A DNA stretch of 51,818 bases from a virus, in IMG/VR virus record IMGVR_UViG_3300009537_004348, positions 1 through 51,818 of that record. The stretch is one strand, 5' to 3'. The notes under the pieces were generated by a model. It was not told the DNA's origin and made no database searches. It saw only the letters and a list, made by a program, of their open reading frames with translations. The translations under genes and the position numbers were made by a program. Shown here piece by piece: positions 1,731 through 41,133 of this stretch; the first letter of the stretch is position 1, and each line of letters opens with the position of its first letter.

Positions 1731-3605
1731 TTAAAATTTCGGCAGGTGGGCCAAAACTGGCCCTTCCCTTTTGCCGGTAAGCCTATGCTTAGGAATAGCA
1801 AATCCTTTCGTTTGGTAGAACTTAAAACCCAAATAAGCATACATTAAGGCCATAAGTCCGTCGTTTGGTGTACCACCCTTTACGTATCGAATTACCACTC
1901 TACCCTGGTGAGTTCTTACTTCTTTTTCCATCGAACAACAGTGCTCAATTAACCAGTGTATGTGTTCATAACTTTCCCAAGGAAACTTAACTTTGCTTTT
2001 ACGCATAGTTGTGAACAACTCATCTAAAACAACGTGAGAGTTACAAATCATCCTTAGTTCTTCGGGATCATATTTATATGGATTAACCAAACTTCCGCTA
2101 TTTAAACACCCTATTATTCTGCCGCCGTATTCTCGCTGCAACTCGGGCACGATATCATTACCGAAACCCAAGTCCGCTACGCCGACCTTAATATCAAACC
2201 TTCTAAACATTTCGTGCACTACTTCTTTCTTATGTCTAAAGTCATTACTCTTTAGCTTGAATGCGTTCTCAATGTGCAAAGTGCCAGCCTTATCTGCTGA
2301 TGCAACAACCACAGATGAGAATGACTTGCCGCCAGTGGAGTCGGGCGAATCTGCTTTACCACCCCAGTCAACTCCAAGAAAGTATGGAGTCTCATATGTA
2401 CCTATTATTTTGCGATTTATCATACGCCTGCTTGGTGGGGCACCAAAAGAAATTCTTCTATCGATATCCCTGCAGTACTGCCTAATCTCTTCTTCTGACA
2501 TAGGCAAATCAGAACCACTATAGAATTCGCCCAATACTTCGTTTGCCCATATACGCTCAGTGTTTGTAGCGTGAATACCAGGCTTTTCTTTTTCTAGAGC
2601 CTCACGAGTCATGCGAGGAATCAGCATTTGATTAAAGTGAAATCCTACATACTGGGGCTCTTCACCATTATCCATTTTATGTTTGGTTGGTATCCATTTC
2701 CCGGACTCTACTGAAGCAACCTTATCGTTATGAAAACCACATTTTGGACACTCTATAGTCTGCCCATATAGCCACATCTTATCCCAATCGTTACTCCCCA
2801 TCATAAACAATGGGAAATAGTGCTCGCAGTCTAAGCACTGCAAGTGATAATATCTTTGGTCAGATGCCTCCCACATCTTATAGAAGTGAGAGCCTTTTTG
2901 CAAAGGCGTACCAAAGTATAACTGTATACCCTGGTTGACAGGCCCATAACGAGCAGCAGTGAGGGTACGACGACTATTACCAATGTCGTCTTGATTCATA
3001 CGCTGAACCTCATCATAAAAAATGCCATCAAGGGTCATACCTTGAAGGCGTACAGCGTTGTTAGCATTGGATTCAACCCAAAGCTTATTTTCGTTTTTGA
3101 AAGTCTTAGCTGTCAGAGTATCCTCTGGAACATCCTTGCGTCGTCTACCATCTTCATCATACATGAGTAGTTGATTCTGAATATACCCATTCTGCGAAGT
3201 ACGCATCATGGTACTCAACTTATCTTTGGCAAAAAACTGAACGTTAGCTAATGCAGGAAAGCAGTGAAGTATACGGACAGGCGGGCTATCTGACGAGGTT
3301 CCGTACATACCACTCGCACAGAAGTATAACTCTAGGGCAGTGGCCATTACGGTTGCGCCGACCTGACGACCCTTGACACAAACTACAGGTTTGCCAGTAG
3401 GTCCCAAAGCCTCTGTGGCTATGTACCTATAGACATCTGCTAGAAATTTCCAACCTGTACCACCGCCAAGTTTTAATGGTTCGCCATCTATTGTGAGATA
3501 GTTTTCGGCAAAAGATACCGGGTCAACTTTAAGAACCTCTTTCTTTAAGTCTTCAAACCATTGTTCTGGGGTAGTATAGGAATTAAGCTGCTGCTTATTC
3601 GCCAC
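1731..3605 (-). CDS. terL: Terminase large subunit (DNA packaging ATPase/nuclease)
   Basis: This 624-aa protein is the packaging motor that translocates DNA into the prohead and cuts it. A P-loop variant GRQVGATV lies near residues 79-86 and a Walker B segment FYDEV near 196-200. A coupling motif FGTP follows near 231. A four-cysteine zinc ribbon (C257, C260, C286, C289) sits between the ATPase and nuclease domains, as in GpA-type terminases. The RNase H-like nuclease domain begins with GVDWGG near 411, with further acidic residues at VADLG near 476. Translation starts at GTG in a TAGTG overlap with the stop of the upstream gene, which implies coupling. Confidence 0.93.
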   Translation of the reverse strand: MANKQQLNSYTTPEQWFEDLKKEVLKVDPVSFAENYLTIDGEPLKLGGGTGWKFLADVYRYIATEALGPTGKPVVCVKGRQVGATVMATALELYFCASGMYGTSSDSPPVRILHCFPALANVQFFAKDKLSTMMRTSQNGYIQNQLLMYDEDGRRRKDVPEDTLTAKTFKNENKLWVESNANNAVRLQGMTLDGIFYDEVQRMNQDDIGNSRRTLTAARYGPVNQGIQLYFGTPLQKGSHFYKMWEASDQRYYHLQCLDCEHYFPLFMMGSNDWDKMWLYGQTIECPKCGFHNDKVASVESGKWIPTKHKMDNGEEPQYVGFHFNQMLIPRMTREALEKEKPGIHATNTERIWANEVLGEFYSGSDLPMSEEEIRQYCRDIDRRISFGAPPSRRMINRKIIGTYETPYFLGVDWGGKADSPDSTGGKSFSSVVVASADKAGTLHIENAFKLKSNDFRHKKEVVHEMFRRFDIKVGVADLGFGNDIVPELQREYGGRIIGCLNSGSLVNPYKYDPEELRMICNSHVVLDELFTTMRKSKVKFPWESYEHIHWLIEHCCSMEKEVRTHQGRVVIRYVKGGTPNDGLMALMYAYLGFKFYQTKGFAIPKHRLTGKREGPVLAHLPKF

Positions 3606-4189
3606 TACCGTTTTACTCCATCATGTGTTTGATAATCTGCTATGTCATCTTCAAAATCTTCATGCCTTTCCTGACCGACTAGACCTACATCATACACCTC
3701 ATCAGATTCATTATAGAATCGCTTTTTTCGCTGTTCTATATAATCCCTTAGCTCCTGGTCAGAGAAGCTAACCAACTCTTTGCCGTATCTGTCACGCAAA
3801 AAATTCATGATAGAAAGAGTGTTCTTTGTGCCACCACTATGTTCACACATACTATCTATGTCTTTCATAATTTCTGGGTTACCTTTTAGTTTAGGTAGGG
3901 AGCTTTCTGCCGGGCCCATTTTTGCATGACGAATAGATAAAGGACGGAAGTGCGCCTTTTTAACCTGCTCGCCACCTGTATCTTCTTGACTAAGAGCATC
4001 TAGGCCAACCTGTTCACGGTAGCTTTGAACCACACTCTCAACAGTCTGACCTTTTTTATCGGTGATGATATTCATTACCTCTTGTACGGTAGAAGGGTTC
4101 TTTTCTGCCATGCTGCGAAGGAATTCATCAAACCATTCGCCGCCCCTTTCATCGCGTACAAAAACATCACTTCGGGATACTATGCTCAT
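3605..4189 (-). CDS. Unknown protein upstream of terL, 194 aa
   Basis: I do not recognise this protein. It is mostly helical, charged and low in cysteine, with an acidic C-terminal third. It is coupled to terL through TAGTG and to the 129-aa gene upstream by a 4-base ATGA overlap. A role in packaging or head assembly is suggested only by position. A small terminase subunit is possible, but no helix-turn-helix is evident here. Confidence 0.8.
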   Translation of the reverse strand: MSIVSRSDVFVRDERGGEWFDEFLRSMAEKNPSTVQEVMNIITDKKGQTVESVVQSYREQVGLDALSQEDTGGEQVKKAHFRPLSIRHAKMGPAESSLPKLKGNPEIMKDIDSMCEHSGGTKNTLSIMNFLRDRYGKELVSFSDQELRDYIEQRKKRFYNESDEVYDVGLVGQERHEDFEDDIADYQTHDGVKR

Positions 4190-4575
4190 TTCTTCTTTTT
4201 CTCCTCAGAGGGCGGCCCAGCCTTTTCGCTTATTTCTATTTTGTATTTTCTTGCTGCTGCTAAAATCCTATTCCATATCTGCTTGCGTTTGGCTGGAGGG
4301 TATTTGTTAGCATTTGCTGGCTTAGAGAAATAACTAAGTGCTGCACGAACATTCTCTTCAGTATGTATGGGATACTTGTAGTTATCCGGGTCAGCATAAT
4401 CACTGCGACTCTTCGCCCCGGTCTCACGATACTTTTTAGGAGGCGTTTTGTGCGTAGTCATCTCTTTATCTTTAGCAACTCTCTCAAGTATCGTGTCTAT
4501 CTCGCGTGCTTCATCAAATAGACCCAGCGCATCTAACCTAGTAGCGATTTTTGCAAGTTTTTGTAAGATAGACAT
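4186..4575 (-). CDS. Helical-hairpin protein with a DYADP-type phage domain, 129 aa
   Basis: Residues 1-35 form the helical hairpin that recurs in this cluster (LAKIATRLDALGLFDEAREID). The centre, from about residue 59, carries SDYADPDNYKYPI followed by helices. This resembles a small domain seen in many phage structural proteins (DUF6582-like, recalled from memory). The C-terminus ends in a lysine run. Function is unknown. The stop overlaps the next start by ATGA, so it is translated with the terL group. Confidence 0.8.
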   Translation of the reverse strand: MSILQKLAKIATRLDALGLFDEAREIDTILERVAKDKEMTTHKTPPKKYRETGAKSRSDYADPDNYKYPIHTEENVRAALSYFSKPANANKYPPAKRKQIWNRILAAARKYKIEISEKAGPPSEEKKKK

Positions 4576-4585
4576 GTTTATTACC

Positions 4586-4765
4586 TCAAAGTTCTATTGT
4601 AATTACTGAGTTGTCTTTGGTTTCATCCTCAAACTCTTCGGGCATTATTTCTAAATACAACCTATCAAGCAATTCCTCTTCAGTTTCTTTCCTCTTCTCT
4701 TTATCTTGATAGATAACCAATTCCTTTACCAAATCTTGTACGTCTTCAGGAACGTAATTAGACAT
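4586..4765 (-). CDS. Small acidic protein, 59 aa
   Basis: A short open frame fills the gap between two longer genes. It starts at ATG 4765, nine bases after a strong AAAGGAGGC-type ribosome binding site, and stops at TGA 4586-4588. The product begins MSNYVPEDVQDL and is rich in Glu, Lys and Asp, so it is probably one long helix with an acidic tail. No family is recognised. The ribosome binding site and exact gap filling are the main support. Confidence 0.7.
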   Translation of the reverse strand: MSNYVPEDVQDLVKELVIYQDKEKRKETEEELLDRLYLEIMPEEFEDETKDNSVITIEL

Positions 4766-4776
4766 GAAGCCTCCTT

Positions 4777-5703
4777 TTATGCGTGGTATTGAGTTTGGAA
4801 GTCAATACCATCTCCTGATGCTGGGTCTGCTGGTTCATTCAATAAACCACGGTCCTTCAGCACAGGGTATCCATAATCAGCAACTAACTGCTGAATAGAC
4901 AACTCTTCTCTTGGGTTGAAGTTGTATTTGTTCTTCAACTTAAGATATGTTTCTTCAATATTTCTTCCCGCAGATACTTTGGAATTTATCAGTATGCCAA
5001 CGATGGCTCTTTCAAATGGAGTCATATACACATTGAGAACAGGGGTTGTGGCTACTTTCTCAATGCGATTTTCAGCATCAGCGTGCTCATTAGCTTCGCA
5101 GTGCAAACAAACCATCGTATCATTCTCGGTATCATGCCACATAGGCACATTACTTTCGCACTTGTTACAACTGCCCTCTGATACTAGGCGCACGTTTAGC
5201 TCGGCAGTTTTACCACTTGCCTTTAGCTTCTTAATCTGCTTTTCTAGACGGTCCATCATGTCGGTGAGAGACTTACGAAGCTTATCTACTTCGCTCTCAT
5301 CAATAACGCCATCAAAATCAGAACGCATAGCCTTACTGATTTCACCGTCAAGCTTGTTTAAGAATGCCTTTGCGCGCTCACAGCCAGAGATAGTTTCTCC
5401 AGAGTGACGTGGAATCTTATTCATCTTGTCTTTCACATAGTCTACGAAAGCAGCATGATTGCCATCATTAGCCCAATCTTTTGGTGCCTCTTCTACGACT
5501 TCCTCATCCTCGACATATTCAACGTCTGAACCAGGAATAAGAGCTGCGAAATCTGCAGCATCCTCTTCTACCAGAAGAGACTCTTCCGTAGGAACATCTG
5601 CTTCGTCGACCAAAAGAGCATCGTCGTTTAGGTCAGTGAGCAAGAAATCCTCCGCCTCATCAACCCAAAGAGCATTTTGATCATTGTCATAAAACCCTGT
5701 CAT
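4777..5703 (-). CDS. Acidic-N-terminus, zinc-ribbon protein, 308 aa
   Basis: The first 75 residues are very acidic and probably disordered. A helical region follows that includes DFDGVIDESE, a partial EF-hand-like loop, and then a likely coiled coil. Two CxxC pairs (CNKC and CLHC, near 179-199) form a probable zinc ribbon. The C-terminal 90 residues look globular. It starts at ATG 5703 behind GGAGGAATTAAA. I do not recognise the family. The setting among terminase-proximal genes suggests a virion or assembly role. Confidence 0.8.
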   Translation of the reverse strand: MTGFYDNDQNALWVDEAEDFLLTDLNDDALLVDEADVPTEESLLVEEDAADFAALIPGSDVEYVEDEEVVEEAPKDWANDGNHAAFVDYVKDKMNKIPRHSGETISGCERAKAFLNKLDGEISKAMRSDFDGVIDESEVDKLRKSLTDMMDRLEKQIKKLKASGKTAELNVRLVSEGSCNKCESNVPMWHDTENDTMVCLHCEANEHADAENRIEKVATTPVLNVYMTPFERAIVGILINSKVSAGRNIEETYLKLKNKYNFNPREELSIQQLVADYGYPVLKDRGLLNEPADPASGDGIDFQTQYHA

Positions 5704-5716
5704 TTTAATTCCTCCA

Positions 5717-6772
5717 TTATCGGTTTACCTGACGAGGGCCAAACCATGCGTCAGATAATTCCCAAAGTAGCCCTGTATCGGTTCGTTCTTTCTCGTATTT
5801 ATCTCGATAATCCTCTAAGTATTTTTCTATCTTAGCGAACGTCTCTTTATGATTTTCTTTGGTGCTCTGAAGTTTTCTCAAAAGCTTATCGAGTATATCA
5901 GCCTTTTCATCTTCTCCAGATTCATCATATTTATCTGCAAGCTTTATTAGCTCTTCTGGTCTACTGAAACCTAACAAACTAAACAGACCAAAGAAAAGAT
6001 TTCGGCTTTCATTGTTGTCGGCATAGAATCCTAATGGATACCCATAGAGTCCATCTAAGCCTATACCCTGAAAAGTTTGTGGATACAATGGGCTGCCTCT
6101 AAACGAAGTGCTGTGTTGTCCAGCCCCAGTATCTCCAAAATCACAATCGACTTTATTGTGCGACTTTAATATCTTGTCTGCATATGGGCAAGTCTTTCCA
6201 TCTTTATGATAAGCATATACAAGCCTATTGGCTTTTGCTACGTTATCCCTCTGCCCCTCTTCTTCAATATTAGTTAAAGGAGCCATTCTGTCAACTGATT
6301 TACCGGCATTTTCGCAAGCATCCACTATGGGCAAACCAAAAGGACATCCTCTTATTTCGTCTCCACGAATTATTGCAAGCTTTTTATTACCGACATTTTC
6401 TGCTTGAATAATTTTCATTTCTCTACCATCGTCTCGTGTAGTAACTTTCTGCAATTCGGCTGCTCTATCCGTATATATCTTTTTGTAATACGATTCATCC
6501 TGCTTAAAGATTTCATTTTTCTGCGCAGGTTGTTTTGGGTCAGGATAATTGCCAACAAACTCTATGGACATATCCTCCCTTTGTTTTTTTGCTATATCTC
6601 TTCGCTTTACTTCCTCTAAATCTTCTTCACTAACTATCATTTGGTCTTGGTTTACGATTCTATCAGGATCAGATCTATTAATTCTGTTAAAGGGGCCCTC
6701 ATTGTAGTCGAAATTTTGCCTGTACCAATTGGTTTCATTTCGAACCCTTATATGCCAGGTATCTTTTTTCAT
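5717..6772 (-). CDS. Unknown morphogenesis-region protein with helical hairpin, 351 aa
   Basis: No known family is recognised. The N-terminal half is polar. The middle has scattered cysteines (GCPFGLP, DACENAG, TCPYAD, VDCDFGD) that could bind metal or iron-sulfur. Near 270-300 lies another copy of the helical-hairpin motif of this cluster (EELIKLADKYDESGEDEKAD). The start overlaps the stop of the upstream gene by ATGA. Its N-terminal text (RNETNWYRQNFDYNEGPF) echoes the C-terminus of the neighbouring 247-aa protein (DFWRRNYDYGESPY), which suggests a shared short binding motif. Confidence 0.8.
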   Translation of the reverse strand: MKKDTWHIRVRNETNWYRQNFDYNEGPFNRINRSDPDRIVNQDQMIVSEEDLEEVKRRDIAKKQREDMSIEFVGNYPDPKQPAQKNEIFKQDESYYKKIYTDRAAELQKVTTRDDGREMKIIQAENVGNKKLAIIRGDEIRGCPFGLPIVDACENAGKSVDRMAPLTNIEEEGQRDNVAKANRLVYAYHKDGKTCPYADKILKSHNKVDCDFGDTGAGQHSTSFRGSPLYPQTFQGIGLDGLYGYPLGFYADNNESRNLFFGLFSLLGFSRPEELIKLADKYDESGEDEKADILDKLLRKLQSTKENHKETFAKIEKYLEDYRDKYEKERTDTGLLWELSDAWFGPRQVNR

Positions 6773-7512
6773 TTCTTCTTTTTAACTCGCTTAGAAAATG
6801 GAGGCTTGTCAGTTATTTTCTCAATCTTATCCAAGTTCATATATGGGCTTTCGCCATAATCGTAATTTCTGCGCCAAAAGTCTGGCAAGTTTTCATTATG
6901 CTCGCTGTCTCTTGGTGAGAGGTGACGCTCTTTCTTCTTTTTTTTGCCAGCTGTTAGTTCTGGTTTAGCTGACCCACGAACACCAGCCACACTGTTTGAA
7001 GTGTCAACCTCATACTCTCCAGGCTCCGGTCCTAAAAGATTAGTAAGTTCTGCCCAACCTTTACCTACCCAGTATTTCCAATCCTTTGCATTATCTTCTT
7101 GACTGTGCATTTTTTCCAGCATAGAGTAATACTTAGGGTCTTCCGCTAAATGGTCTAATGCTATTTCTTTAGCCAAGCCCCTATCGTTTGTGTGCTCAAG
7201 CTCTTCTTTAATGCCCTTTTCCAACTCTTTCTTATCTACGTCCTTTTCAGAAAGCTTATCGCCCTTTCCTCCTGGCAATTGATCATCAGCCTGTTGTGTC
7301 TGAGTTTGCTGCTGCTGCTGTGCTTGTTGTTGCTGCAATCGCATCTGCTCTAATTGCTGAACCTGAGTTTCCAATTGCTCCACAGTGTTGGTAAGAGTTT
7401 GAAGCTGGTCAGGCAAATTTAGATTCTGCAAAGCCTGCAACTGTGTCTTCAGATTCTCTAAAGTCTGTGGTGCTGTGGAAGTTTGCATCCCTGTTTGAGC
7501 TTTTCGTTTCAT
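6769..7512 (-). CDS. Gln-rich coiled-coil protein with a DUF5661-like segment, 247 aa
   Basis: Residues 15-80 are a glutamine-rich coiled coil with a poly-Q stretch. Residues near 95-135 contain EELEHTNDRGLAKEIALDHL and then EDPKYY, which matches my memory of the DUF5661 pattern found in phage and bacterial proteins. The C-terminus is lysine-rich. It is coupled at both ends by ATGA overlaps. Function is unknown. A scaffold-like or internal virion role is possible. Confidence 0.8.
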   Translation of the reverse strand: MKRKAQTGMQTSTAPQTLENLKTQLQALQNLNLPDQLQTLTNTVEQLETQVQQLEQMRLQQQQAQQQQQTQTQQADDQLPGGKGDKLSEKDVDKKELEKGIKEELEHTNDRGLAKEIALDHLAEDPKYYSMLEKMHSQEDNAKDWKYWVGKGWAELTNLLGPEPGEYEVDTSNSVAGVRGSAKPELTAGKKKKKERHLSPRDSEHNENLPDFWRRNYDYGESPYMNLDKIEKITDKPPFSKRVKKKK

Positions 7513-8276
7513 AATGCTTTTACCAATAGTCGCTTTTGTATTAGAATATCCGAAATAGTTTTAGTCAATGGAACCAGAGGAAGAAGCTTATACTCTATTA
7601 GCATCTCGATACCTTTGTCGGCGTCCATTAGCACTATCTCGTTCATCTTGTCTTGCACGAATTTCTGAGGAAGATTCTGTATCTTCTTACGATTTGCTCG
7701 CATCGCAGACTTTAGCCCATCATCCAGCTTGAAATCGTATTTGATAGCGAATCTTATAGCCCTCAATATTCGTCTTGGGTCTACACCTATCGTAATGGCT
7801 GGGTCTATAGGGCATTTGATTAGTCCTGCCTGTAAATCTCCTACGCCCTCTCCAGTTAAATCATATATAGACCTGAAATCTAAACTTTCTAACAGTGTAT
7901 TTATAGTGAAGTCTCTACTGTAAATCTCCAACTTCATATCGTCTACATTAGATACTCCCATCTTCTTCAACTCATCTTCTACTCCGGGAGCTTTAAAGTT
8001 GCTAGAAAAATCTATATGTAATCCCTCTACATCTATAGAGCTATGCCCATCATCATAAGTCCTAAGATTACTATCAGGAAAGTATCTACCAACTGCTTCA
8101 GCCAACTTAACGGAATCTTTGTCACCAGTAGTTATATCTACATCTTTTATTTGAGACTTGGTTCCACGTTTACCCAATAATCTGTCTCGTGGTACGCCTC
8201 CTACTATAAAAGGCTGGCTCAGTTTCAATCTATCCGCAACTTTCTCAACACCTGAGAGGATTTCATCAACATTCAT
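7509..8276 (-). CDS. CCA-adding enzyme/poly(A) polymerase-like nucleotidyltransferase
   Basis: The 255-aa protein has the class II nucleotidyltransferase head: FIVGGVPRDRLLG (GG at 26-27) followed by the metal-binding DVD at 45-47. The usual RDFTIN motif comes next, then DPRRILRAIRFA, the neck segment of bacterial CCA-adding enzymes and poly(A) polymerases. These enzymes add CCA or A tails to RNA 3' ends. At 255 residues it lacks the long body and tail of cellular enzymes. It sits inside the structural cluster and is coupled to the coiled-coil gene, an odd place for an RNA enzyme. Substrate is not predictable. Confidence 0.88.
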   Translation of the reverse strand: MNVDEILSGVEKVADRLKLSQPFIVGGVPRDRLLGKRGTKSQIKDVDITTGDKDSVKLAEAVGRYFPDSNLRTYDDGHSSIDVEGLHIDFSSNFKAPGVEDELKKMGVSNVDDMKLEIYSRDFTINTLLESLDFRSIYDLTGEGVGDLQAGLIKCPIDPAITIGVDPRRILRAIRFAIKYDFKLDDGLKSAMRANRKKIQNLPQKFVQDKMNEIVLMDADKGIEMLIEYKLLPLVPLTKTISDILIQKRLLVKAL

Positions 8277-8279
8277 GGA

Positions 8280-9764
8280 TTACCTCTCTTTCTTTTCTGG
8301 CAAAGTCTGCTGAACCTCTCCTACTGGCTTTTCCATCAAACCCCCGGTTTCCATTTTCTTTGGGGCTTTAGCTGGCGTCTGAACAGTAGCCGGTGGTAAA
8401 ACAGGTTGCTGCGGCGATGGTGCGCTTTTGCCTTGCGGCGTAGGCTTCATCGACTGAGGAGTTGTAGTTCCAGTGCCGCGAAGTTTAGCTATGATTGCTT
8501 CTATCTTATTACTTGCATAGCCATACGCCTCTATCAGCTTTGACTGCGCATCTGTTAGTTCAGGAAAATAACTAGCCAGCCCGATATCATTCAACAAGAT
8601 ATCTATGCTGGCCAACTCTCTAATTGTGTCGCGAGACTTTAGCTTCTTGCTAACGCCCGCAAGTCGATTAATAATTGTATCCACACCCACCTTGGCTTGT
8701 TGTGGTAGGTCTGGTTCTTGTGGAACTGCAGGAGGTAGAGCTTGCAAAACATCTTCATTCCCACTTGACTGCTGAGGCTCAACTGCAGTCTTTAAGAACA
8801 CTGCGCCCTCTGGAAATCCAAAGCGCTCCATTCTATTTGCTGAGCGAATCACACAGTCCTCAATTGATGCATATACATCCAGCTTATTGATGCTTTTATC
8901 TAGAGCAAACATCTCATCATAAATATGATCTAGATTTTGAGAACTAAGGGCATCGCAGTATTTTTCAACCAATCGTCTAAGTGAACGTAGCCTGGAGCGC
9001 ATCTTTAGCTTTAGCATTTTAGCCTGTTCAAAGCTTTTCTCTCTTTCAGTCTGCTCGGGCTTCTTAAAAGTGCTTATGCTTGGGCGCTCCTCGTCTCTAG
9101 CATACCAAGATTGAGGTAGAGCTGGCAGGTCTATATCTAATGCTTCTTTGTTCAAGTGCGCCACCTTTACATTGTATTTTTCCGGAGTGCCTTCTTCAAA
9201 ATAGCGCACCCAGCTTCTGAAATTGTATCTTTCATCCACATCCCAGCTTGCCGTATGACGATTGATAGCATCCTCACGACTCATTTCCTGAGTACGTAAT
9301 GATGCGTATATTTTCTTTAGAGTAGATATCCACTTATCTATATTGTATTGTGGTCTACGTTCAGGCATTCCTCCCATATTAGGGTGTGCCTTTTTGTCGA
9401 GCCTATCACACAACCACTTGTGTATTAGTAACCTATAGTCGGTGAGATTGTCTAGGGTGTAGTCTTCGCTTTTATTCGATACTATGTACCTGCATACATC
9501 CTTCTTGTGCTCTGGCGATGCTTTGATTCCAAAAGTATCATCTAGAATTTCATCTACGAAGTTTCCAGCAAAAAAGTATGCGCTGTAGTCATCATCTGAA
9601 TGCACACCAGCATCACTTGCCGCCTGAGCATCCAAAAGCAATTCTCCACACAGGTCTTCTGTAACCCCAGATTCGATGACGCTGAGCAATTTCTTGAGCA
9701 TGTACTTGTTGATTGCGCCAGCTTTATATGCTTCTAGAATTTTCTCGGCATAATGGTTACTCAT
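8280..9764 (-). CDS. Large helical structural-region protein with Pro-rich tail, 494 aa
   Basis: No family is recognised. The protein is helical for about 400 residues, then has Pro/Gln-rich linkers around a helical segment near 355-415, ending in a low-complexity PPATVQTPAKAPKK-type tail. I chose the ATG at 9764 (MSNHYAEK) because AGGAG lies nine bases upstream. The ATG two codons earlier is only three bases from it. The start overlaps the end of the upstream gene. Length and linkers suggest a virion or injected protein, but this is inference. Confidence 0.78.
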   Translation of the reverse strand: MSNHYAEKILEAYKAGAINKYMLKKLLSVIESGVTEDLCGELLLDAQAASDAGVHSDDDYSAYFFAGNFVDEILDDTFGIKASPEHKKDVCRYIVSNKSEDYTLDNLTDYRLLIHKWLCDRLDKKAHPNMGGMPERRPQYNIDKWISTLKKIYASLRTQEMSREDAINRHTASWDVDERYNFRSWVRYFEEGTPEKYNVKVAHLNKEALDIDLPALPQSWYARDEERPSISTFKKPEQTEREKSFEQAKMLKLKMRSRLRSLRRLVEKYCDALSSQNLDHIYDEMFALDKSINKLDVYASIEDCVIRSANRMERFGFPEGAVFLKTAVEPQQSSGNEDVLQALPPAVPQEPDLPQQAKVGVDTIINRLAGVSKKLKSRDTIRELASIDILLNDIGLASYFPELTDAQSKLIEAYGYASNKIEAIIAKLRGTGTTTPQSMKPTPQGKSAPSPQQPVLPPATVQTPAKAPKKMETGGLMEKPVGEVQQTLPEKKER

Positions 9765-10497
9765 CCTCATCGTCTCCTAATATTTCGTATTCTATTTCTT
9801 GCAGTTCCTCTATTTCTACTGGCTCTGTAGCAGCCAGTAAGTTCGGCCTATACGACATACTGTTGAGTTTGTTGTTCAGTCGCTCCATAAACATCATAGC
9901 CTTATCTGGACCGAATTCTGCCATACACTCTCGTATCACTTCTCGTATAACAGCTATCTGGTCATTCATAACATTAATGTTGATATTGTGGTCTATGGTC
10001 TTATCAGCCATTCCTTCAACAAACTTCTTGTACTGAGCTAGTAGCTCCATCTGCTGTGTTATGAACTTTCGTAGTTCATTATCACCCTTAGCGGCAGTTT
10101 CTTCGCCGCTAGCAACCATATTGTACCAATACTCCATTCTGCTTTCTATTACAGCATCAAGCTGAAGTATTTTCCTAGCAACGTCTAACTTTGAATCTGC
10201 TATCTCGTTAATCTTGTTCTTATATGCATCCACAGCTTCTAGCTGACGTTGACGCATAGTTTCTTCGATTTGTCGTTTCTGTACAGCTGCTGCGTCCTGA
10301 ATATCTTGAAGTACTTTGCCTTCCAGCTTCAGATGTTCTTTTCTGAAGTTTTGCAACGTAATCCATGAAATATGCTTCCCTTTATCATTAGGATACTTGT
10401 TTTTGAGCTTCTCCTCTACACTTCGAGTAGACTCTCCGTTGGTAAGCATCTGAATAATATCTTCTTTGTCAGGATGGCTAAGTATTTTCTTACTCAC
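9757..10497 (-). CDS. HTH plus coiled-coil protein, possible small terminase-type DNA binder, 246 aa
   Basis: Residues 10-55 look like a helix-turn-helix (EDIIQMLTNGESTRSVEEKL, then WITLQNFRKEHL). A long coiled coil (60-150) and an acidic C-terminus follow. An HTH followed by oligomerising helices is the usual plan of small terminase subunits, which recognise packaging sites. It lies 6 kb upstream of terL in the same transcription direction. It starts with GTG at 10497, directly after the stop of the upstream gene, behind AGAGGTGA. The terminase assignment is tentative. Confidence 0.75.
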   Translation of the reverse strand: MSKKILSHPDKEDIIQMLTNGESTRSVEEKLKNKYPNDKGKHISWITLQNFRKEHLKLEGKVLQDIQDAAAVQKRQIEETMRQRQLEAVDAYKNKINEIADSKLDVARKILQLDAVIESRMEYWYNMVASGEETAAKGDNELRKFITQQMELLAQYKKFVEGMADKTIDHNININVMNDQIAVIREVIRECMAEFGPDKAMMFMERLNNKLNSMSYRPNLLAATEPVEIEELQEIEYEILGDDEDE

Positions 10498-14034: not shown

Positions 14035-14508
14035 TTATGCCAATTCTGGGAACTGGCTTAATAGGGCATCTCGTCTTTCAGAATCTAGCTCCTTAAACAA
14101 CTTTTCTTTTATAGCTGTATCTGAACTGAGTTTTTCTACCAAAGTTTCTTGAAAAAGATGTACATCAGTTCTATCAAACCCGAATTCAGCTGATGCAAAG
14201 CGACGAATTGGGGTATTCTTATATAGCAGGGTCACGCTCTCACCTTGAGAATCCGACAACGCTGCCCAATGGCTACTCTTAGATTCCAGCCCTTTATCAG
14301 GGCTTTCCTCATCAGAATACTGCGCCACAAGATAAGATTCTCCGTTTTCGCCCTCTTCTAATATCCAAATGGGGTCAACGGGTCCGCTTTTGAGCTGAAA
14401 TACATCAAAAGCTACCTTGCGAAACAGGTGCTTATTGGGTTCGTAGGGAATTCTGCCTGGATCAGACACGACGGCTCCTGCTAGTTTTTGCCAATCTAGA
14501 GTTTCCAT
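14035..14508 (-). CDS. Unknown protein, 157 aa
   Basis: I chose ATG 14508 (METLDWQKLAG) because AAAGGAG lies seven bases upstream. An in-frame GTG further upstream has no such site. The protein has a likely mixed alpha/beta core and a helical C-terminus. No family is recognised. It is the first gene after an intergenic gap that holds a terminator and a TATAAT box, so it probably opens the morphogenesis transcription unit. Confidence 0.75.
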   Translation of the reverse strand: METLDWQKLAGAVVSDPGRIPYEPNKHLFRKVAFDVFQLKSGPVDPIWILEEGENGESYLVAQYSDEESPDKGLESKSSHWAALSDSQGESVTLLYKNTPIRRFASAEFGFDRTDVHLFQETLVEKLSSDTAIKEKLFKELDSERRDALLSQFPELA

Positions 14509-14570
14509 TAAACCACTCCTTTTCATATTGATTTTTGACACAAGAAGCCTTTGGGTAGACTTCTCCTAAC

Positions 14571-14608: not shown

Positions 14609-14643
14609 AAGAAAGCGGGCACCAGTTTTACCCGGCGCCCGCT
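14609..14643 (-). terminator. Intrinsic terminator after the GAPDH-like gene
   Basis: On the minus strand a 10-bp stem (AGCGGGCGCC with GGTGCCCGCT, one G-U pair) closes a 10-base loop and is followed by TTCTT. It lies 26 bases after the GAPDH-like stop codon. Confidence 0.8.
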
Positions 14644-14668: not shown

Positions 14669-15769
14669 TTATATCTCTTGAAATACGTAAGGATTAAAGC
14701 AGCTTAGCCTTTCCTCTACCGTACTCGGGTCTAGAAAGTGCAAAACTGCCGCTATAGAGGACAGGAGAGAGTTCCCGTCCTGAGGAGTAAAGGCAAACCC
14801 TGTAATAGTTGGCCCTATTGAGTTGTAATTTGGCTCAGGCGCTCGCACCTGAACTGTAGGAGTAACGACTACGGTTTGGCTCAATATACGACCATAGAGG
14901 CCGTAATCGCGTCCAAAAGAGAATACTTGGTTAGACGTCACTTTGTTTGTGAGAGCAATCATAGGGTTCTCTCGAAGCTTCGCCAAAGCATCCTCTGCAG
15001 TTTTCATTACACCGTTACTTATGTGGTCCAGAGTTATAGAAAAACGAACAGCATGCATATACTGTGTGTTTAGTTTTACCGCACTGGAGTACAGCTTAAT
15101 GTGGGGAAACTGGTCCTTCAATAAATGAAAAGCATCTCTCGCATGATGAGTGCCAAATTCAGGGTCATCATGTTTACCTACATTGATACTGGGAACAAAT
15201 CCGCCATTCTGAGAGATATCGTTTGCCCTACGTAAGCAAACAAAATCTCCGCTACGAATCCCTCCGGGCGTAACAGATGAAAGTGAGTTCTCGAAACTCT
15301 TAATAAGAACCGCAAGGTTATGAGTATTACAGCTAACCACTTGGATAAATTGGCCTTCGGGAAAATCAGTTATACCTCTGGCATACATCTTCCCAAAGCC
15401 GAATTCAGAGCCTTGTGCTATGAATCCTTTAACTTTATCCTTGTATTTATTGTAGTACTCTTGTTTATTTGATAATCCGACACCTGAGGGAGTGCAATCT
15501 ATTACCACGGATGCTCGCTCAATTGCCTCTTCGCGTGTCAGAGTTGGGTTGACGCCCAGCTCTCTAAACCCATGAAATTTATCAGGGTCGGTTGAAAGCT
15601 TTGCGCCATAACTTAAAAGCTGTTTAACCTTTGACATATCATGTGCCAAAGGCGTATTTTTGTGAAACGTTACTTCATTGATTCCTAGTTTCTCACTATG
15701 GCGAGCCAGTAAACCTATAAGAGGCTCGCCTATGGTCCCTGTGCCGACCACATGAACAATGTTTGTCAT
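14669..15769 (-). CDS. Archaeal-type (type II) glyceraldehyde-3-phosphate dehydrogenase homologue
   Basis: The 366-aa protein begins with a Rossmann motif (VVGTGTIGEPL). It carries the pattern of type II, archaeal-style GAPDH: VIDCTPSGVG with N101 downstream, then VVSCNTHNL with the presumed catalytic C147, then LRRANDISQNGG and the MHAVRF segment near 238. GAPDH oxidises glyceraldehyde 3-phosphate using NAD(P). The lysine/glutamine-rich loops usual in archaeal enzymes are changed (for example IAQGSEFGFG), so substrate may differ. It is coupled to IF-3 by ATGA and ends at a strong terminator. This is unusual in a phage. Catalysis of the classical reaction is not shown by sequence. Confidence 0.78.
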   Translation of the reverse strand: MTNIVHVVGTGTIGEPLIGLLARHSEKLGINEVTFHKNTPLAHDMSKVKQLLSYGAKLSTDPDKFHGFRELGVNPTLTREEAIERASVVIDCTPSGVGLSNKQEYYNKYKDKVKGFIAQGSEFGFGKMYARGITDFPEGQFIQVVSCNTHNLAVLIKSFENSLSSVTPGGIRSGDFVCLRRANDISQNGGFVPSINVGKHDDPEFGTHHARDAFHLLKDQFPHIKLYSSAVKLNTQYMHAVRFSITLDHISNGVMKTAEDALAKLRENPMIALTNKVTSNQVFSFGRDYGLYGRILSQTVVVTPTVQVRAPEPNYNSIGPTITGFAFTPQDGNSLLSSIAAVLHFLDPSTVEERLSCFNPYVFQEI

Positions 15770-16272: not shown

Positions 16273-16740
16273 TTAATAAGCAACATTGTTTTCCTTTTGA
16301 AATTCTCTCATTCTCTTTAGTATTTTTTGTATTTTGTCATTGTTTGCGCATAGCTTTCGAAGTTTTTTCAGGGCGCCACCGTATCGCTTTCCATTATTGC
16401 CGTAATCAATATTACCTTGCAATGTTTTATGAATCGCGGTCTGATGTCGTCCTAGTTCAATAGATATTTCATTTTGAGTCTTGCCATCAATATAGGTCAT
16501 AATCATGACCTGCTTTTGTTTATCTGTCAGGCAATTATCTATCAAATACATAACTTCCTCAAAAAGCTCTGTGCGTAATTTTAGAAATTCTTCTGAACCC
16601 GCATAGGAGTTCAAATAAGCGGCCATCCCATCCTCATTTGCAAAATTGTTTAATAGACTCGGGTCTATGCTAATTTCGACAAATGCATGGGAGGTAATAT
16701 CGGCATCGCCAGAAGAACTACAAAGAACATTCTTGGGCAT
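16273..16740 (-). CDS. Sigma-70 region 4-like HTH regulator, 155 aa
   Basis: The centre of the protein (LTDKQKQVMIMTYIDGKTQN, then EISIELGRHQTAIHKTL) has the sequence pattern of sigma region 4, which reads the -35 element. No region 2 is seen, so it is not a full sigma factor. It could be a phage transcription regulator or a sigma fragment acting with another subunit. It starts behind GGAGGATAC at ATG 16740. Confidence 0.75.
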   Translation of the reverse strand: MPKNVLCSSSGDADITSHAFVEISIDPSLLNNFANEDGMAAYLNSYAGSEEFLKLRTELFEEVMYLIDNCLTDKQKQVMIMTYIDGKTQNEISIELGRHQTAIHKTLQGNIDYGNNGKRYGGALKKLRKLCANNDKIQKILKRMREFQKENNVAY

Positions 16741-19247: not shown

Positions 19248-19275
19248 TTTATAGACGAAAAACCTATCAGGTCAA
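19248..19275 (-). promoter_or_regulatory. Sigma-70-type promoter for recA
   Basis: On the minus strand TTGACC (19275-19270) is followed after 16 bases by TATAAA (19253-19248), five of six consensus matches in each box. The -35 box lies in the last codons of dnaJ. The same architecture with a 16-base spacer occurs before the ssb gene. Confidence 0.65.
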
Positions 19276-20307
19276 GCTTTTAATCTGCCGTAAAAGCTCT
19301 TTTTCTTTATCAGAGGCTTTTTGCGGCATGTCTATCTTTATCTTAACCAGGTGGTCTCCCGTTTCTTTTTTTGCTTTTATACCCTTGCCTTTTACTCTAA
19401 GAACGCTATCTGGCTGAATTCCTTCTGGTATTGTCATATTCACAGAACCGTGTATGGTTTCTATGCTTCTCTTAATTCCCAGAATGGCATCCACGTAGCT
19501 TACGTGCTCCTCAGAGATTATATCTAGTCCTGCACGCCCGAACTTTTCGTGTGGGTCGACTATAACGGAAATATAGAGGTCTCCTGCCTCTTCTCCGTAT
19601 TCGCTTGGTGCTCCCTTGCCAGCCAGCCTCATTGACATACCGTTGTCGATTCCTGGCGGTATAGTCATGGTGATTTTGCTGGAGTTGGACTTGGTGCCAT
19701 TGCCACTACAGGTTTCGCACTTTATTTTGACCGTAAACCCAGCGCCTTTACATTGTGGACAGGTGTGAACTATCTGCATAAACCCCTGCTGAGTGCCCAC
19801 CTTTCCTTGACCCTTACAAGCCGAGCAGGTATCTAGAGAGGTTCCTTGATCTGCACCAGTTCCCTGACAATCAGTACAGGCAGTTAGGTGGTCTACAATG
19901 ATGGTTTTGGATGCCCCCATTGCTGCATCCATAAAACTAATGCGCAGAGTTTTGTGTAAATCATCTCCCCTAAAAGCACCAGTTCTGCGGAAAGGTCCAC
20001 CAAAATCCCCTCGCTCACTCCATTGGCGACGGACTCTCTCATACATATCTCTAATATCCCGATATGCATTACCTTGGGTTTGGCCAGATGATGAAACATC
20101 ACCAAACGTATCGTACTGTTTTCTTTTCTCAGCGTCACATAGTAACTCATACGCTGCTGAGATTTCCTTAAATTTCTCTTCGGCTTCCTGATTGTCAGGA
20201 TTTTTATCAGGGTGGAACTCAAGAGCGAGCTTTCGATACGCCTTTTTTATTTCTGCGTCGCTTGCGTTTTTTTCCACGCCCAAGACTTTGTAAGGATTTT
20301 GCATCAT
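19267..20307 (-). CDS. dnaJ: DnaJ (Hsp40) co-chaperone
   Basis: This is a full type I DnaJ of 346 aa. The J domain includes [16 protein letters not shown] with the essential HPD. A short linker follows, then four CxxCxGxG-type zinc repeats ([32 protein letters not shown]) near 143-205. The C-terminal substrate-binding domains complete it. It would stimulate host or phage DnaK. The glycine/phenylalanine linker is short. The first 89 bases overlap the end of the RuvC gene in another frame. The J domain needs this start, so the overlap is real. Confidence 0.95.
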
Positions 20308-26964: not shown

Positions 26965-28257
26965 TTACTCCTTAACCTTGCTCTTGGCAATATCAATAAT
27001 ATAATCTATCACTTTTCTAGACCTCAGTACGCCTACAAATGCATCCATCTGATTAGACCTATAGAGCATACTGACTAACTCATCTTTTGTAGTATTATTC
27101 CTGCTGGCGTGCTCTTCTAGCATATCGTCCAATTCGGCAGGCGTAACCTCTACCCCAGCTTCCTTGTTATAGATGGCATCTATTAGTATAGCCCTCATAA
27201 CATTTTTCTTTGCTGCGGGCTTTATCATTTCCACAACATTTGGTGGAAGCTTCTGTCCTCGTTTTTGAGCTTGATTAATGAGACGTTGAGCCTCGAAATT
27301 AACCATTGATTCTGGGACATCAAAATCATTCAGTTCTAAAAGCTTGTTTGTAATTTGTACTTCAAGCGCATTTCTTTCCTGCAACTGAACGCCTCTCTCT
27401 GCCTCTTGTTTTACGTGATTCTCAAGCTCTCCCACAGAGTCGTATCCAACCATCATTGCGAGGTCTTCATCCACCTCAGCCAGCTTGGTTTCAACGATGC
27501 TATGTAGTTTCACATCAAAACGAGCATCCTTGCTTGCTAGATGGCTTGCACTATAGGTTTCTGGAAAAGTCACATTGATTATCTTTTCATCTCCTATCTG
27601 CATACCTACCAGTTGCTCTTCAAATCCCGGAATAAGAGTGCCTTCTCCTAGAGACTTAATAGAAAACCCTTCAGCAGAACCTCCTGCAAAAGGCTCAACC
27701 TCTCCGTCTAGCTTGCCCACAAAATCCAGTATTAGAGAATCGCCTTCTTGAGCGCCTCTATCTAGAATTTGATTATGTTCAGCAAACTGCTCTCTATATG
27801 CCTGCAGCTTATTATCTATCTCTTCTTGTAAGTTTGATTCTGGAAATTCCAGTGCTAAATCTTCATAACCCACTGGGTCAATTTTAGGAAGGATTTCAAC
27901 AACCAGTTCTACAGTATACGAATTATCGAAACTGAATTCGCCAGGGTATTCATCTTCTCCAGGAGTAAAATCCTTTATTGTTGGATTACCCACTGGATTT
28001 AAATCATGCTCTCTGACAGCTTGTGTATAGTACTCAGATATAATTATCTGGGCTATAGACGGCCTGGCCTTGTGACCAAAGTGCTGCTTGATTCTACCAA
28101 CAGGAGCCTTTCCCTTACGAAAGCCGGGGATTTGAACATCTTTCTTAATCCCTTCGAAAAATTCTGTAAACTTTCTGTCTACACTGTCTGCTGAAACTTG
28201 AATTGATATTTTGCGTTGGACGCTATTAACATCCTCAACTTGAATTGTATCTTGCAT
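26965..28257 (-). CDS. tig: Trigger factor (ribosome-associated chaperone/PPIase), full length
   Basis: The 430-aa protein matches cellular trigger factor from end to end. The ribosome-binding domain carries the signature GFRKGKAP at 45-52. The FKBP-type prolyl isomerase domain (about 160-255) includes GDSLILDFVGKLDGE and LIPGFEEQLVGM. The long helical C-terminal arms fill the remainder. Trigger factor binds L23 at the exit tunnel and shields nascent chains. Length is about that of bacterial Tig (around 430). It ends just before a small acidic gene and a terminator. A whole trigger factor is rarely seen in phages. Confidence 0.95.
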   Translation of the reverse strand: MQDTIQVEDVNSVQRKISIQVSADSVDRKFTEFFEGIKKDVQIPGFRKGKAPVGRIKQHFGHKARPSIAQIIISEYYTQAVREHDLNPVGNPTIKDFTPGEDEYPGEFSFDNSYTVELVVEILPKIDPVGYEDLALEFPESNLQEEIDNKLQAYREQFAEHNQILDRGAQEGDSLILDFVGKLDGEVEPFAGGSAEGFSIKSLGEGTLIPGFEEQLVGMQIGDEKIINVTFPETYSASHLASKDARFDVKLHSIVETKLAEVDEDLAMMVGYDSVGELENHVKQEAERGVQLQERNALEVQITNKLLELNDFDVPESMVNFEAQRLINQAQKRGQKLPPNVVEMIKPAAKKNVMRAILIDAIYNKEAGVEVTPAELDDMLEEHASRNNTTKDELVSMLYRSNQMDAFVGVLRSRKVIDYIIDIAKSKVKE

Positions 28258-39319: not shown

Positions 39320-40099
39320 TTAAGTCTCTACAGTTCTGATAGTCCAGAAGTCATCAGATAGTCCGTCATTTGTGAAGTAATCAAATGGCATCCAGAAGTG
39401 TCCATCTAGACCCCACCCTTTACCCCATGAATTACGAACTAACATCATCTTTTTCTTTTTGTTGTAACCTACCGCCATGACAGCATGTCCGCCGATTACC
39501 TTTTCGCCCTTTTGTGGCATAGGAACCATTCCAGTTTCTTTAACTACATGGCTCATAAAACTTTCGTATACAGTGAAGCCATATACAAAAGGGTAGCCTT
39601 CCGTTAAACAAACCTGCATCTCTGATAAGGAACGCCCAACGCGCATATACTTAATTGTCTGATGCTCAAGCGCTTCCGTATAGCATGAGGCTGCTGGTTT
39701 CTTGGTAAAGTCCTTAATAACATATGGCCATAGCGATTCTGGGCATGCACCATGTTTATTTACACTTTTAATCGCATCTCTAATATAAGCGCCGGAATCA
39801 TAAGATATCGTGCCTATCATTTCTCTAGAGTTGTAATATGTAAACAATCGGGACGGCACAAAATTATCGCTATCCATCTTTTTATCTACAAACTGAAACA
39901 TAGCTCCTACCGCATTAGCAGTACAGCTTCCCAAGGAGCCTTGATCATATACTGGTGCACAACCAGGTCTTAAATCAACGTCCGCCTTAGTGCGTTTATG
40001 ACGACCGCACCACCCTAAATATTTTGCGTATAGGTAATCACGGACATCAGGCAAATCTGGTTGCCAGCCAAAGCCTTCAATTCTAAAAGTATTAGCCAT
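39320..40099 (-). CDS. Papain-like (C1) cysteine peptidase
   Basis: The 259-aa protein has the papain catalytic elements: Q53 and C59 in YDQGSLGSCTANA, H205 in IGGHAVMAVGY, and N223 in VRNSWGKGWG. No signal peptide or long prodomain is seen, so it probably acts in the cytoplasm or in the virion. Targets are unknown. It starts behind AAAGGGAG. Confidence 0.92.
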   Translation of the reverse strand: MANTFRIEGFGWQPDLPDVRDYLYAKYLGWCGRHKRTKADVDLRPGCAPVYDQGSLGSCTANAVGAMFQFVDKKMDSDNFVPSRLFTYYNSREMIGTISYDSGAYIRDAIKSVNKHGACPESLWPYVIKDFTKKPAASCYTEALEHQTIKYMRVGRSLSEMQVCLTEGYPFVYGFTVYESFMSHVVKETGMVPMPQKGEKVIGGHAVMAVGYNKKKKMMLVRNSWGKGWGLDGHFWMPFDYFTNDGLSDDFWTIRTVET

Positions 40100-40721: not shown

Positions 40722-41133
40722 TGGTGGACCCGCTGGGAGTCGAACCCAGGTCCAAGAAACCTCAAACAAATCATCTTATGACCATCTCTACTCTCAAGGT
40801 TATTTAAGGATTAACCTAAGTGAGCAGTACCTATAAAATCCGGGGGCGCCGGTTTCCCGTGGCCCTCCACCAGTATGCATTTTGAGTCTGCCCAAGACTA
40901 ACCGTCAAGCCGGTATCACGCCTTCTCACTTCTGTTGCCAGGCTGTGAGTGCCCCGCTCTTGCTAAGCTTATTAGGCCGCTAGAGCAGTCAACCCTTCAA
41001 CGGTTTCGTCAAAGAGTCCAGCAAAGAAATTATCTTCGCCAATTATTGTTTTGCGCCTTTATTAGCGTGAGCCAGGCACCTCTCACGGGTCATCAAAAAA
41101 GCCGTCAATTCCCTGTCGAAACCGGTCGGGCCC
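40722..41133 (-). ncRNA. ssrA: tmRNA (ssrA), 412 nt, complete
   Basis: The 5' end GGGCCCGACCGGTTTCGACAGGG pairs over 7 bp with the 3' end CGGGTCC, followed by A and an encoded CCA. The T arm is CTGGG-TTCGACT-CCCAG. The tag frame starts at a GGC resume codon after a CAAAACAATAATT stretch and ends in two TAA stops. The tag begins GEDNFFAG and ends LTALAA, with 22 residues in all. tmRNA rescues stalled ribosomes and tags their products for proteolysis, usually by ClpXP, with SmpB. Its first base is the last base of the GNAT stop codon. No SmpB is seen in this window. Confidence 0.93.

Follow-up and report, generated by a model that had tools for sequence, protein, structure and literature searches.

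The window, by which we mean the whole stretch of DNA analysed, is an IMG/VR virus record of 51,818 bases. Genes for a terminase (phrog_675, detected by PHROGs but missed by PF03237), a DNA polymerase (phrog_405), SbcC/D and an FtsK-like protein identify it as phage, and an exonuclease gene is also present. The gene studied here encodes a GAPDH-like protein that we refer to as P0001, and lies on the minus strand among the following features:

14035-14541, minus strand: 168-aa open reading frame (ORF) downstream of the GAPDH-like gene, no Pfam match at E <= 0.1
14614-14643, minus strand: terminator-like hairpin 3' of the GAPDH-like gene, 12 pairs, tail TTCTTATAAA
14669-15769, minus strand: GAPDH-like dehydrogenase P0001, ATG start, ORF of 366 aa
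15766-16251, minus strand: translation initiation factor IF-3, IF3 domains at 1.9e-24 (IF3_C) and 1.7e-12
16273-16740, minus strand: sigma-70 region 4-like protein, upstream of IF-3

The end of the upstream IF-3 gene, whose product scores 112.7 bits against the infC profile (cut-off 60), overlaps the start of the GAPDH-like ORF by 4 bp, an arrangement in which the two genes would be translationally coupled, as an earlier note on this DNA had proposed. That note also gave the gene a terminator of its own, and the hairpin bears this out: its stretch has a folding energy of -29.5 kcal/mol (z -5.1), none of 200 shuffles was equally good, and the tail that follows is just moderately rich in T. Further up from the sigma-region-4 gene lie genes for a DnaG-like primase, a zinc-ribbon protein and RecA, followed by DnaJ and RuvC. 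A second viral locus, L003, has in common with the window the order RuvC-DnaJ-RecA-primase-sigma-IF-3-GAPDH-like (read by eye in L003, where IF-3 was confirmed), with a gap of a few bases after IF-3 in place of the overlap, and it carries a counterpart of the 168-aa ORF at the equivalent position (similar sequence, by eye). No other glycolytic genes were found among the window ORFs scanned (part of all its ORFs), and the window gave no match to ribonucleotide reductase.

A Pfam search with P0001 returned nothing over threshold. The relationship of P0001 to type II GAPDH is far beyond chance: the NCBIfam model NF003251 (PRK04207) matches it at E 1.8e-20, and all 21 members of a set of viral and cellular family rows (set A3) match both NF003251 and TIGR01546 at E <= 0.001 (best 4.8e-32). 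The scores of P0001, 73.3 bits for NF003251 and 51.4 bits for TIGR01546, fall below the curated cut-offs of both type II equivalog models (185 and 232.9 respectively). Six of the 21 family members also showed a weak match to the Pfam domain Gp_dh_C (best 4.9e-5). The type I GAPDH model TIGR01534 was absent among the P0001 matches at E <= 1 and reached one of the 21 members (3.2e-4).

Structural comparison gave the same assignment. As a single sequence searched against the PDB, P0001 found four archaeal GAPDH structures, the best being 1cf2 at E 2.7e-9, and a viral profile found 2yyy at 4.8e-23, with type I enzymes marginal at 0.0059 or worse. An AlphaFold2 model built from 26 rows (pLDDT 90.4, pTM 0.91) predicts that the whole protein adopts the two-domain fold of type II GAPDH; two segments, the DISQ loop at 184-188 and residues 96-99, fall below pLDDT 50. 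The top PDB matches of the model were the archaeal type II enzymes 1b7g, 2czc, 1cf2 and 2yyy (Z 33.3-34.4, rmsd 2.5, 321-325 residues), to which P0001 is 18-22% identical, and the first six Foldseek rows were these same four entries; the best type I GAPDH structure among the rows listed scored Z 25.4. The BFVD viral structures yielded no match at E <= 0.001. A grouping with semialdehyde dehydrogenases, which the earlier note had named as the outcome that should overturn its assignment, did not occur: PF01118 gave E 0.054 and 14.4 bits against a cut-off of 26, and the best folds were those of type II GAPDHs. None of the 50 structure matches listed was a semialdehyde dehydrogenase, an absence that alone proves nothing.

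The Rossmann, DCTPSGVG (91-98) and SCNTHN (146-151) motifs that had been named from the sequence are all found in P0001, whose main motifs are:

Residues 9-14: Rossmann motif GTGTIG
Residue 37: K37
Residues 91-94: DCTP
Residues 118-122: AQGSE
Residue 147: C147, in SCNTHN
Residues 180-187: RRANDISQ
Residues 207-212: THHARD
Residues 235-239: TQYMH, with the presumed catalytic H239
Residues 328-333: TPQDGN

These were compared with 14 canonical type II sequences (10 from Thermoplasmatota genomes, two from other cells and two from plasmids). Residues common to almost the whole family set and to the majority of canonical rows are G9, G11, I13, G14, K37 (71% of canonical rows), D91, P94, G120, E122, S146, C147, N148, T149, R180, R181, D184, H208, D212 and H239. 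Both C147, the catalytic cysteine named in the earlier note, and H239 are kept in 100% of the family and canonical rows compared; they align with C140 and H219 of 1cf2, positions that we take to be catalytic. K37 falls on the lysine in the SKTRP motif of the archaeal enzymes, a residue that presumably serves in NADP binding. In all 45 distinct viral proteins C147, N148, T149, H150, R180, R181, D184, H208, H209, D212 and H239 are invariant, and the catalytic Cys, the Asn-Thr and Arg-Arg pairs and the His are also invariant in the 21 rows of set A3.

Around these residues the pocket has been replaced. Relative to the canonical enzymes the family shows the changes T150H, P185I/V, D187Q, P206G, T236Q and R293G, together with TPQDGN for VHQESD (328-333) and LSS for PEN (336-338); that is, family members carry SCNTH, RR..D[IV], QYMH and PQDGN..LSS where canonical enzymes have SCNTT, RR..DP, TLMH and HQESD..PEN. 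At every changed position but 185 (I 71%, V 23%), 92-100% of family rows have the new residue, and for this reason the changes are more likely to be functional than the product of drift. The suggestion of the earlier note that altered loop residues might signal a new substrate stands as a possibility, given that near-invariant canonical residues have given way to others that are near-invariant within the family.

A scan of cellular genomes returned 541 stretches, 512 of which encode a relative of P0001, ruling out a phage-only family. The best 80 of the 512 by family match, a sample that by its choice favours close relatives, are 51-56% identical to P0001 and come from Acidobacteriota, Planctomycetota, Fidelibacterota (Marinimicrobia), Thermoplasmatota, Myxococcota, Thermodesulfobacteriota, Nitrospinota, Actinomycetota and others. 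Simple scripts did the ORF calling, and because the script overlooked the gene in one of the 80 loci (L058), that locus is absent from the neighbourhood and tree sets. Members above 200 bits occur in 25 of 97 Thermoplasmatota genomes, and 61 of 100 Fidelibacterota genomes gave matches, among them a few fragments and at least three copies of a divergent form with SCNA[HQ]N. The clade to which P0001 belongs is common in bacteria.

The divergent Fidelibacterota copies L196, L198 and L201 have SCNA[HQ]N for SCNTHN, GTYQ or GTFQ for GTHH and QYLH for QYMH, and from these motifs are possibly a paralogue with altered activity. One further Fidelibacterota copy contains three in-frame TGA codons. Recoding of TGA was considered and rejected, the stops aligning with D/E, with mixed residues and with G; because they lie in or near garbled stretches, this copy reads as frameshifted or damaged, not as evidence of a code change.

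Most of the cells that carry the family also encode another GAPDH. Among the genomes of the best 80 of the 512 relatives, 61 carry a type I GAPDH that exceeds the cut-off and 64 carry a match at E < 1e-90, so that as a rule the family member is an additional paralogue and not the enzyme of glycolysis. Canonical type II proteins over the TIGR01546 cut-off numbered four in the 80 genomes, each besides a family member. Neither other GAPDH was found in 16 of the 80, 10 of which have phosphoglycerate kinase (PGK) over the cut-off. We make no claim of a sole-GAPDH role for all 16, as the PGK matches in G018, G159 and G164 are partial or start within a few bases of a contig end. Type I GAPDH is missing from G129 and present in G131, though their family proteins are identical in the tree; this difference, and the PGK matches at contig ends, suggest that some of the 16 lack a GAPDH through assembly gaps.

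Gene neighbourhoods in cells are mostly lineage-specific. In two related Thermoplasmata (L093 and L131) the family gene is preceded at 16-19 bp by a PGK gene in the same orientation (identified by Pfam for L131 and by genome search for both), as would be expected of an enzyme that makes 1,3-bisphosphoglycerate. Their genomes (assemblies of 1.2-1.3 Mb) gave no type I match and no second type II match, and in this lineage the family enzyme may, from gene order and content, have taken over the GAPDH step. A transketolase gene lies 19 bp upstream of the family gene in L105, a small metallo-beta-lactamase (MBL)-fold protein adjoins in nine of 79 cellular loci (four Fidelibacterota and five Thermoplasmata-type archaea; Pfam, one member), and a cluster of GCS2-family ligases lies directly upstream in four Fidelibacterota-type loci (one member tested). 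A function read from cellular operons was accordingly rejected, and we treat PGK, transketolase, GCS2 and MBL as leads only.

The phylogeny of the family was examined in a quick tree and in a careful one (86 rows at 75% identity, LG+C20; bootstrap not fully settled). The trees omit five of the 45 distinct viral proteins, each under 330 aa, and the divergent Fidelibacterota copies L196-L201 are in neither. In the careful tree a branch with support of 100/100 separates the family from 13 canonical sequences, and the Thermoplasmatota rows branch first within it. Two plasmid-borne bacterial type II GAPDHs of the same superfamily (Bradyrhizobium NZ_CP066352 and Meiothermus NZ_CP021131) group with the canonical archaeal enzymes and not with the family. 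Viral rows fall in three places: a main phage clade of 27 rows (97/94), L002 inside the Fidelibacterota (100/99), and the window paired with L003 (100/100) beside two Planctomycetota rows (96/86). A single viral clade is rejected (AU p 0.007, for a viral group named after the first tree had been seen). The viruses also split in the quick tree, where L005 and L027 stand apart from the main phage clade, which they join in the careful tree. The phylogeny that the earlier note had proposed supports a separate clade, and the two trees differ over the cellular rows nearest to the window pair, which lies beside Planctomycetota in the careful tree and near Thermoplasmata/Bathyarchaeota (86) in the quick one. 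From both trees, the family appears to have been picked up by viruses more than once.

Scans of IMG/VR by protein and by DNA pattern supplied the viral loci L002-L055. The VVSCNTHN pattern picked out 52 stretches, and 51 of these code for the family; the other, L055, is a 10-residue match alone. With the window and L003 included, and the contig of L002 and L004 counted once, the family occurs on 53 viral contigs; the 54 loci yield 45 distinct proteins, some of them cut at the locus end. In a phage collection the single match was weak and lay in an unverified 4-kb record, and a literature search of titles and abstract openings, covering few subscription journals, found no phage-borne type II GAPDH-like enzyme. 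The main phage clade is under purifying selection: dN/dS is 0.03-0.08 in nine of 10 viral pairs (82-93% identical), values that are rough, since eight of these nine pairs have dS above 1; in the tenth pair, and also for the window against L003, dS is saturated.

A block of genes recurs in many viral loci. It includes a 110-aa ORF (33 of 54 loci; no Pfam match), a trypsin-like protease (34), a PIN-PhoH ATPase (32) and, in 10 loci, a weak tubulin/FtsZ match, from Pfam runs on one member of each cluster. IF-3 adjoins in two of the 54 within the stored flanks, many of which are short, and the L002 record has no IF-3 match; we therefore rejected an IF-3 partnership as a general rule. Searches of 30 of the 53 contigs, many of them fragments, detected terminase PF03237 in seven, ribonucleotide reductase (a possible NADPH consumer) over the cut-off in seven, and PGK in none, an absence that is not proven in fragmentary records.

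The gene encoding P0001 lies in a genuine viral genome and is a homologue of a cellular metabolic enzyme, as is expected of an auxiliary metabolic gene. The reading that we prefer, and hold with moderate confidence, is that in this capacity P0001 would be a working aldehyde dehydrogenase of the phosphorylating kind, most likely with NADP(H) as cofactor, acting on glyceraldehyde 3-phosphate (GAP) or a close phosphorylated aldehyde. We infer an active enzyme because Cys, His and cofactor motifs are kept across strongly diverged sequences, and its cofactor, substrate, direction and benefit to the phage are likewise argued from comparison. Since the superfamily has an established mechanism of thioester chemistry with NAD(P), Cys147 would attack the aldehyde carbon, hydride would pass to NAD(P)+ at the GTGTIG/K37 site with His239 as the base, and phosphate would then attack the thioester to give an acyl phosphate. 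A preference for NADP is suggested by the lysine at the archaeal position, with its presumed role. The likeliest substrate would be glyceraldehyde 3-phosphate or a close phosphorylated aldehyde. In the window phage, whose lineage would have captured the gene from a bacterial or archaeal host, the enzyme would be co-translated with IF-3 and could push carbon or NADPH toward nucleotide synthesis.

GAP or a close analogue has perhaps an even chance of being the substrate, and is favoured by the neighbouring PGK gene, a link confined to the one lineage of L093 and L131. The transketolase gene beside the family gene in L105 and the ribonucleotide reductases of seven viral records also speak for the preferred reading. 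Against a GAP enzyme stand the strong type I GAPDH in 64 of 80 genomes, the replaced pocket and the lack of PGK in the 30 viral records, many of them fragments, and within the window the lack of a ribonucleotide reductase match and, among the ORFs scanned, of another glycolytic gene; the rebuilt pocket and the separate type I enzyme of most hosts favour another phosphorylated aldehyde, and a substrate different from GAP is a real, if lesser, possibility.

The strongest alternative, which we regard as credible though short of probable, is that P0001 is a dehydrogenase for another substrate, for example an aldehyde or acyl phosphate in sugar, thiol or aldehyde-stress metabolism, with GAPDH chemistry and the NADP site kept and the pocket rebuilt (H150, DISQ loop, QYMH, TPQDGN). 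It would account for the systematic near-invariant replacements against the 14 canonical rows and for a DISQ loop that is conserved yet modelled with low confidence, a pattern that mobility in a substrate loop could produce. The separate type I GAPDH of most cellular hosts (61 of 80 over the cut-off), the MBL-fold neighbour in nine of 79 cellular loci and the GCS2-family ligase cluster upstream in four Fidelibacterota-type loci point the same way. The PGK adjacency in L093 and L131 speaks against it, however, as does the lack of any constant neighbour, and the MBL-fold proteins of the two groups look by eye like different subgroups of a huge superfamily, so that their adjacency may be chance.

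A bolder form of this alternative, tentative in the same degree, takes the family to be a third, unrecognised class of the GAPDH fold, with its own near-invariant pocket and a substrate other than, or additional to, GAP, captured at least three times by phages because its reaction limits infection. Jointly with that, and no more firmly, the class would be spread widely over Thermoplasmata and bacterial phyla, where it would stand alone as a second enzyme in addition to the glycolytic GAPDH.

A non-catalytic or moonlighting GAPDH fold, such as an RNA- or ribosome-associated factor acting with IF-3, would suit the 4-bp overlap and the many genes for translation and folding in the window (IF-3, tmRNA, DnaJ, trigger factor), but we consider it improbable, as binding alone would not call for catalytic residues invariant in 45 viral proteins and 21 A3 rows, and IF-3 adjoins in just two of 54 viral loci. 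Least probable is a plain type II GAPDH taken from an archaeon, which the best PDB sequence and structure matches, the 25 of 97 Thermoplasmatota genomes above 200 bits and the quick-tree position of the window pair (86) might suggest, but which is contradicted by the family scores (73.3 and 51.4 bits against 185 and 232.9) and by the tree (a separate clade at 100/100, with the window pair beside Planctomycetota at 96/86), and which sits poorly with the bacterial-type IF-3, tmRNA and trigger factor of the virus.

The claim of the earlier note that P0001 is an archaeal-type GAPDH therefore holds in so far as the protein is a full-length homologue with the catalytic Cys kept, and fails on its sub-threshold scores and separate clade. 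With the archaeal enzymes 1cf2, 1b7g, 2czc and 2yyy, P0001 shares the full-length fold, the catalytic Cys, the His219 position, the Arg pair, the His and Asp of HH..D, the Rossmann GxGxIG and the aligned lysine; in contrast to them, P0001 scores under half of the curated values, and its family has a replaced pocket and usually stands beside a type I enzyme. With type I GAPDH (TIGR01534) and erythrose-4-phosphate dehydrogenase it shares the superfamily fold and catalytic cysteine chemistry, but type I enzymes match less well in structure (Z 25.4 or less among the rows listed) and in profile (0.0059 or worse), and have their catalytic His elsewhere in the chain. P0001 would be wrongly filed as an archaeal GAPDH, and is well supported as an enzyme.

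If the preferred reading of P0001 as an active dehydrogenase is true, many uncultured bacteria and archaea hold an enzyme family for which Pfam offers no dedicated model, which falls short of the TIGR01546 cut-off for type II GAPDH and whose active site is almost perfectly conserved, and its repeated presence in phages would suggest that its reaction matters during infection. The question then raised is which aldehyde or acyl-phosphate step viruses need beyond what the type I GAPDH of the host supplies. Phage genes believed to redirect central carbon and NADPH into nucleotide synthesis are described in PMC5082946, and the phages treated there are believed to inhibit host GAPDH via CP12; the window phage differs from those in itself carrying a GAPDH-like enzyme.

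A tubulin/FtsZ-like ORF lies close upstream of the GAPDH-like gene in L030 (5672-6823; PF00091 at 1.5e-4, below the cut-off, one member), with clustered ORFs in nine other viral loci, and a peptide-deformylase-like ORF (motifs by eye) lies near the gene in L027 (2-433), with clustered ORFs in five others. In L002, on a viral contig of 156 kb, the GAPDH-like gene is surrounded (3387-10417, by eye) by a sugar-related cluster of ORFs for a cupin, an NAD-dependent epimerase, glycosyltransferases and a sulfatase-like protein.

The window itself brings together a translation and folding kit in one phage: besides IF-3 there are a tmRNA gene (40722-41133, minus strand; tag GEDNFFAGLFDETVEGLTALAA), a full DnaJ (19267-20307, minus strand) and a weak, below-cut-off match to a ribosome-hibernation factor (4777-5703, minus strand). 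A papain-like cysteine protease (39320-40099, minus strand; PF00112 at 6.2e-13) is encoded near the tmRNA gene. The window also encodes a full trigger factor, a ribosome-bound chaperone (26965-28257, minus strand; Trigger_N 8.3e-28, Trigger_C 1.1e-21, FKBP_C 1.1e-12), whose PHROGs family, phrog_26774, is labelled 'unknown function'.
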